Of a DNA stretch of 64,000 bases, positions 58,401 to 64,000 are shown one piece after another. A program made the translations under genes and the position numbers. Position 1 is the stretch's first letter. Each line of letters opens with the position of its first letter. The notes under the pieces are model-generated. The model worked only from the letters and a program-made list of their open reading frames with translations. It had not been told where the DNA came from and made no database searches. This DNA is from Spinellus fusiger (lineage: Eukaryota; Mucoromycota; Mucoromycetes; Mucorales; Phycomycetaceae). The DNA is taken from assembly GCA_025094145.1 (NCBI GenBank), contig JALLLS010000027.1:310001-374000 (forward strand), given 5' to 3'.

Positions 58401-59199
58401 AAAGACGCTTAGCTGCTTCCTTTCTTCTTTTCTTAGATGTACCTGTCGTGCTAATACCACCACTGCCTTTTGTACTATGGATCGTGTAATATCTGGTGTA
58501 GTAACAAGTAGATCCTAATAATAATAGATAATAGATCATAAATAATAATAACCACAAGGTTTCTCTTCTATTCTACTCTGGATTCCACACACACACACAC
58601 ATTGCATCTCTATCTGTCTCTTTCTATAGTGGCCCTGTCAAGGTCACACTGCCCGACATGTAAGAAGCCACCTTACCTTGGCTGGAATCTGTCGATTGCA
58701 TGAAATACCAAAGAGAGTTGTTTCTGCTACTGACCATCCAGACACAGGCGGCAGATGAAAATACGCAAAATCCTCATCCTTCTGGTGAGCACCGTCTAAG
58801 CAGAAAGAAAATAAGAGTCAGTCTTCCTTCTTCTGCTTCTTCTAGGTGACAGGACGGCTCGACTAGGATATTTGTCAATGTACCTGGCAGAGCAAGAAAG
58901 GGCAAGAAACTCCATTCTTCTGGCAGTTCCAATTTCTCAAGGGAGGTCTGGCTTTGTGCCAAGAAAGCGGAACTCCCCATAAGAGACTCGTGCAGTTCTG
59001 TGCGCTGGGGGAGAGGTGGTACACAAAACTCAACAATAGGTCCATAGGCATGATGAAAGCCGACGACAAGAATAGCGGCAATAGGTTGGTTGATGTTCTG
59101 GTCTAATGAGAGTCGGACAGGTGGAGTGTCATGTGTGGTGTTGGTGGTGTTGGTGGCAGTATTTCTTGGTGGACTGCGGTAGGTGGGAGGTGAATCCAT
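55415..59199 (-). CDS. AVL9: AVL9-family (DENN-like) protein of late secretory traffic
   Basis: A homologue of yeast Avl9/human AVL9, DENN-related proteins acting in exit from the Golgi. The start at 59199 gives MDSPPTYRSPPRN, then AILVVGFHHAYGPIVEFCVP, LPEEWSFLPFLALPDGAHQK and DEDFAYFHLPPVSGW, ending that block with TLFGISCNRQIPAK. Further blocks are QPIFGPLRQKLAVITAAWF, GTSLRELLHRFKGKTLVLLK plus LLLLEKRV, and LPLRIFEKVHPQCWGYD. Then comes a region of TADQIDMLSSEKTKSYLAGT type, and FYNQHLASIVHTTMADRRW with a following WTLHS block. The C-terminal third is Ser/Pro-rich and probably disordered. At least ten exons; intron 57232-57350 has a pentanucleotide repeat. Exon joins in the middle are not all resolved. 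Confidence 0.85.
57232..57350. repeat. TGTAT/TGCAT pentanucleotide repeat in AVL9 intron
   Basis: About 24 pentamers of TTGTA / TTGCA type. They produce long artificial frames on both strands. Confidence 0.97.
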
Positions 59200-59744
59200 A
59201 ACAGAGACAAAAGAGTAGTTGGAATAGCACTGGGAATACAAAGAGAGAGAGAAAGAGAGAGAGCAGGGTAAATGGCCAAGATCAGACTAAATTTGGGTTC
59301 TCCGTTCCTTAAAAATAGAAATTACAAGGGAGGGAAATGGGCGTGTCTTTTTTTTTTCTTCTTTTCTCCATGGAAAAGGCATTGAACAGCACGTGTATTT
59401 GAGGTGATGTATGAATTGATGTTATAGACAGTAGTTGAGTAATAAACCATAGGGTTACCCTTGCTTCTTCCTAATGATAACCCTATAGGACATTGACAGG
59501 CAAAAGGACAAAGCAACTAACTATAAGCAACTCAACAGTAGTTAAGGATGAATACAGTTTAATAGATTACAGAGTGCAGGACTATTCATTAGAAGCAATG
59601 TATTTAATAGTTTATCTTTTCATTTGTTCTCTGTGAGTAGATGAGTGAATGAACAGGTGAATAAGTGAGCAAATGAACAAATACGTGAATAAATAGATGA
59701 GTAAATACGTGAATAAATAGATGAAAGGGAGTGAGGGAGTAGTA

Positions 59745-61964
59745 TCAAATAGTGGGAGGAGATAGAATGGGTTTCTTGCGTGGAATCGATCTCATGGATC
59801 TTCTGGATCTTTTAATGCTTGTCATTGCTGAGTCTTCAATAGATTGGCTAGGTGGAGTAGATGGAATGGCTAGAGTAGGAGAAGTAGGCTGACTGTCTGT
59901 AGTAGACTGACTTGATGAGATGGTTTGGCTCGATGGATTAGACCGACTCGATGGATTAGGTGGATTAGGTGGATTAGGTGGATTAGACTGAGCTGCTAGA
60001 GTAGACTGAGCTGCCAGGAGACTCGCAGAAACAGGTGGGTAGCCTGGCTGTAGTGTGGGTTGAGGGGAGAATGGAAGATACGCTGAAGTCTGACTTGGCA
60101 TGGCAGGCATGGGTAAATTACTAGCAAATGCATGACTACTCTGGGATCGATAATACTGCATTTGTGATCTGTATTGTTCAGTCTCTGATTGAGCCATAGA
60201 AAGCTCCAATCGATGTTGCTCATCATTTACTCTTCGATTCACCTAAGAATCCCCCATAAGTAAACAGGTAGATGGCATGGGCACTATGAAACAGCCCCGT
60301 AATATACTCACAAACGATCTTTGCAGTCTATCGTTCTTAATCTTGAGTTCTGATTTGAGATCAGACACTTCCTCCTGTAGAGAATATGAACAAAGAATCA
60401 TTGAACATCTCAACAGACTAGTCACACAGCACAACCCATATTCAACTCATTTACCTTGAGTTCCAGCACTTTGGACTAAGCACAGATCCATACAGACAAA
60501 AGGCACAAGTATCAATCCATCAGTAGACAATTCCCTTCTTTACCTTCATTTCACTATTAGATGTCTCGAGTGCTCGGTGTTTTGATGCCAATTCATCATA
60601 ATCTTTTTGAAGTTGCGTATTAGTTGTAACAAGTTCTTTGGTTTGGTCTTCTTTAGTATTGAGCCTCTCCTATTCCATAGGATGACCGTATAAGTAGCTG
60701 CTATAGAATCAATAGTGACTTGGGCTACCTGTGTCTTTAAAGAAGAATACTCCATAGAGTCCATTCGACGCTTATAAGCCACTATTGAATCAAGCAGTAA
60801 AAAGAAACATGAGATGCACATACATGCAAATATATACATGTTAATTATTACATAATTCAACTCTCGTCTCTCTAAAGTCATTCTCTTCTTGTAAACGAGC
60901 CCTTTTATAATCACACTCGAGTATTGTTTCATGATATTTCTGTACTTGCTGCTCCAGTGTTACCTATAGATCAAAGAAATAACATGAGAGTCCATGTCAT
61001 TGGCTATTTGAATCACTCACCAACTCATATTTCTGTTGAATGTATTTGTACTTGTACTCATGCTCCTTGCACATATTTTGTGTATAAAGTAATACACTAT
61101 TGGCAGCCTTTAGTTTCACTTCAAACCCTTTGAGTCGGTTCTATCTCCCATAAAAACAACAATAATAATAGAATGTCCATGGATAAATATGCGTTTATTC
61201 TAGTCTCCACCCACAATACACATTCTCTCTCTGTAGTTTACCTCTGTGTGTATGTGTTTTTGTTTTTCACTGGTCAAAAGTTGTATGTATTCATCAATAC
61301 GGTCATCTGGTAGATTCTTCATGGCAGTACATCTTATTTTCTGTAGCAGCTGTGAAAAGACAAGGGCCTCATGGGTTTCTTCTATATATTTGGAATGTTC
61401 CTGATCCATCCGAGTCTATCAAATGTCCCATCTTCTATACCATGTCCTTACATCAAAATGCATAAACACAATGCATTTACTCTTGCCACAAAAATATTCT
61501 GATAGGAGTTTTGTCAGCACATTATTGTCTGTGGCCATAGGACCCGTATAATCAGGATCAGCAACGGCTGTGACAATATCCTCTGTATGCAGATCAGTGA
61601 TCCATTCCTTTCATATGCTACTACTGCTACTAATAATAATTCTAATGCTAATAATACACCTGTCTACTATGGATCCACTTACTTAGTTTAGAAAGTGAAT
61701 AATGGAAGTTATGACGGAGTGACATGCTGGCAGAAGCCATTAATTTAGGATTATATAAATCACATAGCACAAGAGTACCAAGAAATGTATGGGCATCTGT
61801 CAATCGTAATTTGATAATATACGGGAACTTGCACCCTCTCTTTATATCTGCCCATACTTCATTGACTTGGTTGACTCTTGTAAAGAAAGGACTGAGTCCA
61901 TTGGCCAAAACATAAGCGTCTAAAAAAGAAGAAATAACCTCATCTCATTAACCTATTTCTATCT

Positions 61965-61997
<33 letters not shown>

Positions 61998-62765
61998 AGA
62001 AGAATATATACTTACTGTCAATCCTCTCTACATTGTTGATGTCATAGCAATCGTCATCTGTGATTCCTAAATAGCTTAACACAATACGTTTATCCATCAT
62101 ATCCTGCATACTGTTGGTTTTTCTTTTTTACAGATAGGAAAAAAGTAAAACAATTGAGCTATACTTACGCATAGTCCAATTCAATAGTACTCTGGCCATT
62201 TGTGGTTCGATGTCGATTGGCTTTGGTGAGTTCAGCATCCAAACATTGAATAATCGAGTGCATTGTATCTATTCTATACAGATCAGCAGTACAATCGTCA
62301 GTACAATCGTATGCACTGATGGGAAATGTCTTTTATATGCTCCTTTTAGAACATCACCTACTTGTGTTGGAAAGGATCTGATTCACTATGGAAAGTGGGA
62401 TGAGTTTTCTTTCTTTTTTTCTTTCTTTGTCTATTGATAAACAAGCTTTACCCGACAGAAACAAAGGCAGCGGCAGTGTTATAACCTAAACATTTCCATT
62501 CAATACCAACTTAATACATCTCTAAAGAAAGAAAAAAGCATATTTCCCAATATATTGTATTATGTTACGCTTTGTTTACCTTGAACAGCAAGACTGGCCA
62601 GTTGTTGTGCCTGTTTCTGACATGTCTCCACAGAACTAGGCGCGTAGTAGCATTCTGTCATTGCATACCGTGCTCTATTATTTTCAATAGTGGAATTAGT
62701 CAATGTGCTGTTTGTACCCGGGAATAGTACTTACTGTCGCGGGTAGCCTGGTTTACCGTCTATTT

Positions 62766-62813
<48 letters not shown>

Positions 62814-62978
62814 AAACAATACGCTCAGACTTAAGCATGTTTCTCATAATCACATCATGTTACCTATATTAGACATGGTGATGGAGTGATCGCTATTTTT
62901 GGACAGTCGCATAATCTCATTAGGTCCACTTTCTTTGGAATGAATCCAAGCAAGCACATTGATAGAGTCTAGATCCAT
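59745..62978 (-). CDS. Divergent kinesin-like protein without ATP-binding P-loop
   Basis: Reading from ATG 62978, the exons give MDLDSINVLAWIHSKESGPN (like the first kinesin strand) and ARYAMTECYYAPSSVETCQK, then QAQQLASLAVQG|YNTAAAFVSVG|IDTMHSIIQCL. Kinesins have GYNGTVFAYGQTGSGKT at this place, so the Walker A loop is missing. Next come RIVLSYLGITDDDCYDI (kinesin SYLEIYNE-like strand), NAYVLANGLSPFFTRVNQV then NEVWADIKRG, and YIIKLRLTDAHTFLGTLVLC ending DLYNPK where kinesins have the DLAGSE switch II. RHNFHYSLSKLSKWITDL follows, then NNVLTKLLSEYFCGKSKCIV, which corresponds to SKLTRLLQDSLGGNSKT. After the motor-like domain a long coiled coil (from 61400 to 60250) precedes a Ser/Pro/Asn/Gln-rich tail with a basic end (SIKRSRRSMRSIPRKK). 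About twelve exons, none with obvious stops, so it is probably functional as a microtubule or partner-binding protein rather than a motor. Confidence 0.7.
62764..62815. repeat. AAAT/TAAA microsatellite in first-intron region of the kinesin-like gene
   Basis: About 12 tetranucleotide units (AATAAATAAATAAATA) between the first and second small exons. Confidence 0.95.
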
Positions 62979-63671: not shown

Positions 63672-64000
63672 TTACAGTATTTCAGGAGAACGCACCATAA
63701 ATACTACTGACACATCTTTAGAATGCACTGTGTACATTTGTTTTTTAACACAAAATCCAAAAGATTTGAAGAATAGAATAGCCATTGGATCTGTGACCTG
63801 AACAACAATGGCGTACTGGGATGTATTGGCTTTTTCAATGAGGTAACATAGCAAAGCAGAGCCATACCCTTTGCGTTGTTCATGAGGGAGAATGCCCATG
63901 TAGTTAATAGTAATGTAACGCTCATAATCCTCTAAAACATCATGGCGCATTTTAGAAAGGGTAGCTGGCAGGGTAATAAGAGTAGAAAGAGCAGCACTCC
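63672..64000 (-). CDS. GNAT-family N-acetyltransferase, C-terminal part (cut by window end)
   Basis: The readable part has ALSTLITLPATLSKMRHDVL, then YITINYMGILPHEQRKGYGS ending ALLCYLIEKA. This is GNAT motif A, with the RKGYGSA acetyl-CoA pyrophosphate loop. It is followed by VVQVTDPMAILFFKSFGFCV (motif B) and a stop at 63672. The frame is open to the window edge, and the N-terminal half is outside. The INYMGILP.EQRKGYG form resembles Naa50/Nat-type and other small-molecule or protein acetyltransferases; the substrate cannot be given. Confidence 0.8.
   Translation of the reverse strand, partial: SAALSTLITLPATLSKMRHDVLEDYERYITINYMGILPHEQRKGYGSALLCYLIEKANTSQYAIVVQVTDPMAILFFKSFGFCVKKQMYTVHSKDVSVVFMVRSPEIL

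Follow-up and report, generated by a model that had tools for sequence, protein, structure and literature searches.

The stretch of DNA analyzed here (the window) is 64,000 nucleotides of contig JALLLS010000027.1 (C118 in our numbering) from the fungus Spinellus fusiger (Mucorales, Phycomycetaceae). Near its end lies a gene that encodes a kinesin-like head, a coiled coil, and a Ser/Thr/Pro-rich tail with a basic end. Spliced by hand, the gene occupies the minus strand from an ATG at position 62978 to a stop codon ending at 59745, just where an earlier sequence-only reading had placed it. The spliced exons form one continuous frame from ATG to stop. All 15 introns of a 16-exon splice have GT-AG borders, and the frame that had been described as intact indeed carries no internal stops over the 16 exons. 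The protein has 655 residues without a 24-nucleotide mini-exon (16 exons) and 663 residues with it (17 exons). Residues 1 to about 305 form the head, and the rod lies C-terminal to it. The public record of the gene (P0001) is hypothetical protein BDF14DRAFT_673129 of S. fusiger, with 213 residues. Two further members of the same family are considered below, namely a second copy in the same genome (the paralogue, contig C79, locus L050) and a relative in Phycomyces blakesleeanus (F4703DRAFT_1209039, P0002). The parts of the window gene are as follows.

62864..62978, minus strand: exon 1, the first strand region (MDLDSINVLAWIHSKESG...), from the hand splice and the same in P0001.
62735..62759, minus strand: exon 2, 25 nucleotides, from the hand splice and P0001.
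62580..62674, minus strand: exon 3, 95 nucleotides, ARYAMTECYYAPSSVETCQKQAQQLASLAVQ, corresponding to FxFDxVF...QxxVY of kinesins, from the splice and comparison with kinesins.
62452..62485, minus strand: exon 4, 34 nucleotides, GYNTAAAFVSVG, counterpart of GYNxTxxAYG, from the splice and comparison with kinesins.
62362..62385, minus strand: mini-exon 4b, 24 nucleotides, ESDPFQHK, at the place of the P-loop exon and skippable in frame, from P0001, similarity to paralogue intron 4, and position relative to canonical kinesins.
62169..62273, minus strand: exon 5, 105 nucleotides, IDTMHSIIQCLDAELTKANRHRTTNGQSTIELDYA, helix alpha-2 and the next strand, from the splice, the paralogue, and comparison with kinesins.
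62016..62074, minus strand: exon 6, 59 nucleotides, YLGITDDDCYDINNVERID, counterpart of SYLEIYNExxxDLL, with its start set by P0001 and the paralogue.
61683..61919, minus strand: exon 7, from which switch I (NxxSSRSH) has been deleted and which has LGTLVLCDLYNPK where kinesins have the DLAGSE strand (switch II), followed by the start of alpha-4, from the splice and comparison with kinesins.
61452..61582, minus strand: exon 8, 131 nucleotides, KDIVTAVADPDYTGPMATDNNVLTKLLSEYFCGKSKCIVFMHFD, alpha-4, alpha-5, and the last strand, from the splice, comparison with kinesins, and a profile search.
61242..61415, minus strand: exon 9, alpha-6 (EETHEALVFSQLLQKIRC) and the neck, from the splice and comparison with kinesins.
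60312..61140, minus strand: exons 10 to 15 (61140-61021, 60963-60852, 60781-60729, 60669-60544, 60475-60455, and 60374-60312), the coiled-coil rod, from the splice, a heptad test, and helices predicted in the Phycomyces relative.
59745..60242, minus strand: exon 16, the end of the rod, the Pro/Ser/Thr-rich tail, and the basic C-terminus (KRSRRSMRSIPRKK), from the splice and the heptad test.

Our first model of the window gene had 667 residues and began exon 6 at 62110. The corrected model begins this exon at 62074, which gives the junction LDYA-YLGITDDDCYDI, as also found in the public model and in the paralogue. P0001 agrees with the corrected model over the first 199 of its 213 residues. It adds the 24-nucleotide exon at 62385-62362, which creates the junction VSVG-ESDPFQHK-IDTMHS, and it places an intron at 61778-61727, inside exon 7, that cuts the protein to 213 residues. 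We regard this intron as a model error because the part it removes is conserved in both the paralogue and the Phycomyces relative. The other two public models likewise lack parts of the head (P0003 for the paralogue, 342 residues; P0002 for Phycomyces, 529 residues), the Phycomyces model seemingly missing exons 2-5. The three segments on which the sequence-only reading had relied, GYNTAAAFVSV, IDTMHSIIQ, and DLYNPK, are all in frame. As that reading stated, IDTMHSIIQ follows GYNTAAAFVSV without a P-loop, but the junction it took to be direct is interrupted by ESDPFQHK in the public model.

Thirty kinesin motors of the Spinellus genome were spliced with a protein-to-genome script, and 21 of them were used for a hidden Markov model (HMM), a tree, and an intron map. 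Left out were seven degenerate kinesin-14-like copies (L027, L037, L044, L047, L048, L049a, L049b) and two fragments (L045, L046). Several of the 21 lack their N-terminal part in these splices, and the family names used here for Spinellus motors are presumed from motifs.

Compared with these canonical motors, the head of the window protein has no recognizable adenosine triphosphate (ATP) site. A pattern scan of the three minus-strand frames of 63000-59700 found no P-loop, GSGK, DLAGSE-like, or NxxSSR motif, although motifs split by an intron would escape it, and the claim that the ATP site has been erased thus held. An intact P-loop in a missed exon between 62440 and 62270 would have spoken for a motor; the 24-nucleotide exon does exist in this interval, and it contains no P-loop. 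The P-loop GxxxxGK[ST] is present in 20 of the 21 canonical motors (the script mis-spliced the 21st, L021, at this very site) versus neither of the two Spinellus copies, to which this count is confined; the public Phycomyces model does not include the region. The switch I columns (NxxSSRSH) are filled in 21/21 canonical motors and deleted in all three family members. Switch II, DLAGSE, has become DLYNPK in the window copy, DLMNPY in the C79 copy, and DLWNHPF in Phycomyces, such that the Asp-Leu pair is kept and the Gly and Glu are gone. In sum, the family has lost switch I and the Gly and Glu of switch II, and the two Spinellus copies have also lost the P-loop.

Other positions have changed as well. 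The E of YLEIYNE, which all 21 canonical motors carry, is G in the three members. In kinesins, a conserved arginine of helix alpha-5, which we take to be R278 in kinesin-1 numbering, faces the microtubule. It is present in each of the 21 motors, and the three members have D, D, and E instead. The lysine after it is replaced by V, L, and I, a change that is little informative given that four kinesin-3-like motors also lack this lysine. At 52 of the 238 columns in which none of the three members has a gap, the residue is the same. Thirteen of these hold the canonical majority residue, and 19 hold a residue found in no canonical motor. These 19 foreign residues, common to the three members, read as a shared set of new constraints.

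The ancestry of the head is nonetheless recognizable. A single-sequence search against Protein Data Bank (PDB) chains returned five sequences up to E 10, each of them a Kar3 (best E 0.0025). A profile of the two Spinellus copies matched kinesins in 5/5 cases (best E 0.0034); one of these, PDB 3t0q, is named AGR253Wp, which we take to be Kar3. When Phycomyces was added, the three-member profile matched 16 sequences to E 10, the first 14 of which are kinesins (best E 1.3e-6), AGR253Wp among them, with KIF7 at row 14 (E 0.73) and two unrelated proteins last (both E 1.2). The HMM of the 21 Spinellus motors scored the paralogue at 23.6 bits (E 4.5e-7) and the window copy at 12.7 bits (E 9e-4). None of 400 shuffles scored above 5.7 bits, and reversed sequences scored about -2. 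Because the HMM scores exceed the best of the 400 shuffles, the resemblance of the window protein to kinesins is beyond chance, and we dropped chance resemblance as an explanation on this comparison. An hhalign comparison of the family with the kinesin profile gave P 3.1e-7 and a probability of 93% over 250 collinear columns, and the kinesin-like order of segments described by the sequence-only reading is borne out by this alignment and the pooled profiles. The Pfam Kinesin model (PF00225) matches two of the three family heads at E up to 10; with the paralogue head it gives E 6.7e-6 and 25.7 bits, below the curated cut-off of 29.3. At the level of sequence comparison, these results show a kinesin motor domain to be the ancestor of the head. 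This descent is well supported by the pooled profiles and the collinear order, and the window copy taken alone is a weak match.

The paralogue encodes 768 residues, and a pairwise comparison with the window copy gave 30% identity across 333 residues (E 1e-46). The mini-exon aside, the first 15 intron phases are equal in both copies (1,2,1,2,2,1,1,0,0,0,1,0,0,0,0), as are the lengths of exons 3, 4, 5, 6, and 8 (95, 34, 105, 59, and 131 nucleotides). In the paralogue, exon 2 (donor GTTAGT), introns 8 and 9 (GC donors), and the rod exons rest on predicted splice sites. The two apparent GC-AG introns, a rare type, are predicted at L050 positions 2631 and 2288 with donors GCAAGT and GCAATA. Head matches within the Spinellus genome were found only on C118 and C79, whichever copy served as the query, and these counts are lower bounds. 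Rod matches on C1 (E 0.02) and C19 (E 2.5) are weak and were taken for unrelated coiled coils.

Between the two copies, 103 of 313 aligned residues are identical, and codon positions 1, 2, and 3 differ at 169, 117, and 201 of the 313 aligned codons, a pattern as expected under purifying selection. When the 313 codons of the paralogue were evolved neutrally to little over half of the observed divergence, the simulations accumulated 10 stops on average and at least 3, and 0/500 were stop-free. The signs of selection proposed earlier are therefore seen in both the codon positions and the simulations.

A protein search with the paralogue head found two matches among 905 candidates. One is the public model of the paralogue itself, and the other is the Phycomyces protein (E 6.8e-57), which is 54% identical in an alignment that covers 59% of the query. 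The 667-residue first model had no match at E <= 0.001 among 7,993 candidates scored, and the sole match of a two-sequence profile at E <= 1, among 7,383 candidates, was the public model of the window gene. This type of search needs shared exact words and does not establish absence from other Mucorales. Conservation in relatives, which the sequence-only reading had left as a conditional, was thus found for the paralogue, but an orthologue of the window copy itself was not found in these searches. In the tree, the Phycomyces relative joins the C79 copy with support 99, and all three members group with support 100. Because the Phycomyces relative joins the C79 copy, the tree suggests that the duplication predates the split between Spinellus and Phycomyces, with the caveat that a very long branch carries the root. 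Since a diverged sister copy has been kept in the same fungus and a relative exists in a related genus, the gene very probably encodes a working non-motor protein rather than being a dead gene. A neck segment, NKxDIRTKYYRQKAAxSLR (about residues 227-245 of P0002; exon 9 of L050, 2450-2289), is near-identical in the C79 copy and Phycomyces and differs in the window copy. Perhaps this segment is a binding site kept by one branch.

The place of the mini-exon offers a hint as to how the ATP site might have been lost. The Spinellus kinesin-4-like genes have a small exon with [FY]NxTILAYG, followed by an exon that starts with the GQTGSGKT stretch. Introns at both the GYN codon and the AYG codon occur in all seven of these genes (L022, L034, L028-L031, L035) and in these alone among the 21 motors, the others having one of the two. 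The window gene has its GYN intron in phase 1, like L022 and L034, and the intron at the AYG-equivalent codon in phase 2, like L028-L031 and L035. A third intron in L028-L030 lies right before the IVPR segment, near the end of the 24-nucleotide exon of the window gene, in another phase. Unlike the window gene, the seven kinesin-4-like genes keep the P-loop, both switches, and the alpha-5 arginine. The intron places point weakly to kinesin-4, and by its place the 24-nucleotide exon can be read as a remnant of the P-loop exon, being too short to show descent by sequence. A stretch of paralogue intron 4 resembles this exon at a score reached by 14/2000 shuffles. Among eight intron pairs, intron 4 alone falls below 1% (4/500 shuffles), a weak result when the number of tests, eight, is taken into account. 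This counterpart is preceded by AG and followed by GTAAGA, and it contains an in-frame TAA, so the paralogue must skip it to make the full protein.

Outside the head, the best heptad contrast of the rod was reached by 0/200 shuffles for the window copy, 6/200 for the paralogue, and 7/200 for Phycomyces. For Phycomyces, long helices are predicted along the rod, with a predicted local distance difference test (pLDDT) score of 50-88 by block. Both Spinellus tails are rich in Pro, Ser, and Thr and have basic C-termini, and so the coiled coil and basic tail first noted in the window protein are indeed there.

Given these features, we consider it fairly probable that the three proteins represent a small family of non-motor kinesins, so far from two Phycomycetaceae, that acts as a non-motor scaffold or partner subunit derived from an N-terminal kinesin, perhaps a kinesin-4. 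The function proposed here is inferred from sequence. It is likely that an ancestral N-terminal kinesin, perhaps a kinesin-4, lost its ATP site as a separate P-loop exon decayed to a 24-nucleotide remnant, and that switch I and switch II were remodeled. The head would no longer bind ATP or step. Instead, it might serve as a protein-binding module without a nucleotide cycle, carried on a coiled-coil dimer that could consist either of two identical chains or of the two paralogues together. Because the alpha-5 arginine is now acidic, the head is unlikely to grip microtubules as kinesin heads usually do, and any link to microtubules might run through the basic tail or a partner. A more specific scenario, which we offer tentatively and think somewhat unlikely in its entirety, is that a kinesin-4 lineage of the Mucorales lost its ATPase through decay of the P-loop exon. 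The resulting two-member family would have persisted since before Spinellus and Phycomyces diverged, with a head that has neither a nucleotide pocket nor the customary contact with microtubules. The remains of the exon, whose splice sites are still usable, would form a cassette. In the window copy this cassette is in frame; in the paralogue it carries an in-frame stop, and splicing it in there could work as a poison exon to control how much protein is made.

Several results weigh against this interpretation. The kinesin signal weakens when it is divided among families. With single-family HMMs, the window copy exceeds the best shuffle in 0/9 cases, and the paralogue does so in only 2/9 (kinesin-4b, the best of the nine, 10.1 versus 4.4 bits; kinesin-1, 4.5 versus 2.6 bits). 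All single-family hhalign probabilities are below 10%. At E <= 1, the three public models show no Pfam Kinesin match, and a Pfam scan of the 667-residue first model gave no PF00225 match. In the one AlphaFold model, made with two sequences aligned, the head has pLDDT <50, which leaves the kinesin fold unconfirmed. The family also has no settled place in the tree, where its stem of 3.4 substitutions per site sits beside kinesin-6 at support 56, and the match to kinesin-4 introns agrees in place and only partly in phase. The splice sites of the paralogue were chosen with the window gene in view, such that the shared phases are not wholly independent, although the open frames leave little splice freedom in the head. 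Finally, the ratio of nonsynonymous (dN) to synonymous (dS) change, proposed earlier as a check, was computed between the two paralogues by the method of Nei and Gojobori (NG86), and it gave dN 0.71 and a saturated dS of 2.77.

Degenerate kinesin heads with non-motor roles are known in several other settings. The Costal-2/KIF7 branch of kinesin-4 comprises animal Hedgehog-pathway proteins with an N-terminal head and a long coiled coil that are scaffolds more than walkers. Smy1 of yeast and KIF26/VAB-8 have degenerate heads at or near the N-terminus and non-motor roles, and they belong to other kinesin families. The window protein is like Costal-2/KIF7 in joining an N-terminal head, perhaps of kinesin-4 type, to a long coiled coil, and it may likewise be a scaffold. 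It differs from them in that its P-loop and switch I are deleted and in its Mucorales lineage. Vik1, according to a published account, has a kinesin-like fold without an active site, located in a C-terminal motor-homology domain, and pairs with the kinesin-14 Kar3 (PMC3544905). Cik1 presumably does likewise. Like these fungal proteins (PMC3544905), the window protein joins a kinesin-derived head without an active ATP site to a coiled coil. Unlike the Vik1 head, however, its head is N-terminal, and its introns point weakly to kinesin-4, so the comparison with Vik1/Cik1 does not stand as it was first written. The resemblance is one of kind and not of membership. The layouts of Smy1, Costal-2, KIF7, and KIF26/VAB-8 are nearer to that of the window protein than is the layout of Vik1.

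Even so, it is possible, if doubtful, that the window protein is a Vik1/Cik1-type partner, which would form a coiled-coil heterodimer with an active kinesin and use its silent second head to steer or tether the motor. A head without an ATP site plus a coiled coil is what is reported for Vik1 (PMC3544905), the same genome holds 21 motors with canonical motifs, and the best single PDB matches are to kinesin-14 Kar3. The paralogue also matches Pfam Microtub_bd (PF16796; E 9e-4, 19.6 bits versus a cut-off of 27). However, PF16796 is unspecific in that it also matches canonical kinesins of this genome, and it is not among the Pfam matches of the first model of the window gene. The N-terminal position of the head and the acidic residue at the alpha-5 site in all three members speak against such a partner as well. 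Rather unlikely, too, is a microtubule tether, in which the head or the basic tail would bind independently of nucleotide and the protein would act as a static brake or cross-linker. The kinesin ancestry and the basic C-termini of the two Spinellus copies agree with a tether, but the alpha-5 arginine is lost, the two tails look different, and short basic ends are common.

Two further alternatives would remove the need for a non-motor role, and both fare poorly. A decaying kinesin pseudogene that is open by chance would account for the lost ATP motifs, the single exon remnant, and the short annotated protein of 213 residues, yet it is very improbable. Between 655 and 663 codons are open even though the copies differ at 52% of aligned sites, no neutral simulation of the 500 was free of stops, the exon plan is common to both copies, and a relative exists in another genus. 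Moreover, the kinesin-14 copies that are decaying in this genome hold 3-5 stops in each of the seven that were spliced. The least credible alternative, which we regard as extremely improbable, is an active kinesin whose P-loop lies in an exon missed by both the hand and the public models. The extra exon 62385-62362 does fall inside the interval 62440-62270, but it reads ESDPFQHK, the aligned stretch of the paralogue holds an in-frame stop, and the three-frame scan (blind to intron-split motifs, as mentioned) detected no P-loop. Furthermore, with switch I deleted and switch II altered, a P-loop alone would be insufficient for a motor.

The kinesin-14-like copies mentioned above merit a separate comment. 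Seven were spliced (loci L027, L037, L044, L047, L048, and L049, on C131, C173, C154:49500, C169, C32, and, twice, C141), each with 3-5 in-frame stops and an altered P-loop, mostly GHTGSEKK. The two C141 copies are inverted, with starts about 3.4 kilobases apart. One kinesin-14-like copy, L021 on C159, has no stops, and five more places look alike (C120, C160, and three on C154). Such an amplification of a motor gene is odd, and a mobile element may have carried it. In the window itself, the neighbors of the non-motor kinesin gene are a GNAT acetyltransferase domain (63672-63998, minus strand) and the N-terminal part of an Avl9 transport protein (58774-59286, minus strand).

Our preferred reading, a small family of non-motor kinesins with two Phycomycetaceae so far, belongs to a kind that is already known. 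To our knowledge, kinesin heads that have lost the ATPase are few, chiefly those of yeast kinesin-14 partners and of certain proteins in animals. In the literature searched on fungal, non-motor, Vik1/Cik1-type, and Phycomyces kinesins, no listed title or abstract start concerned this family; most subscription journals lie outside the coverage of the search. The family also escapes annotation, in that its three public models are hypothetical proteins without a Pfam kinesin match and are short or exon-deficient relative to the hand splices. The exon-by-exon comparison suggests how a motor can lose its engine through a single exon, with selection still acting on the remainder of the gene. A family in early-diverging fungi whose three nucleotide-sensing motifs have all been deleted or rewritten would be a natural test of the use of the kinesin fold without ATP.

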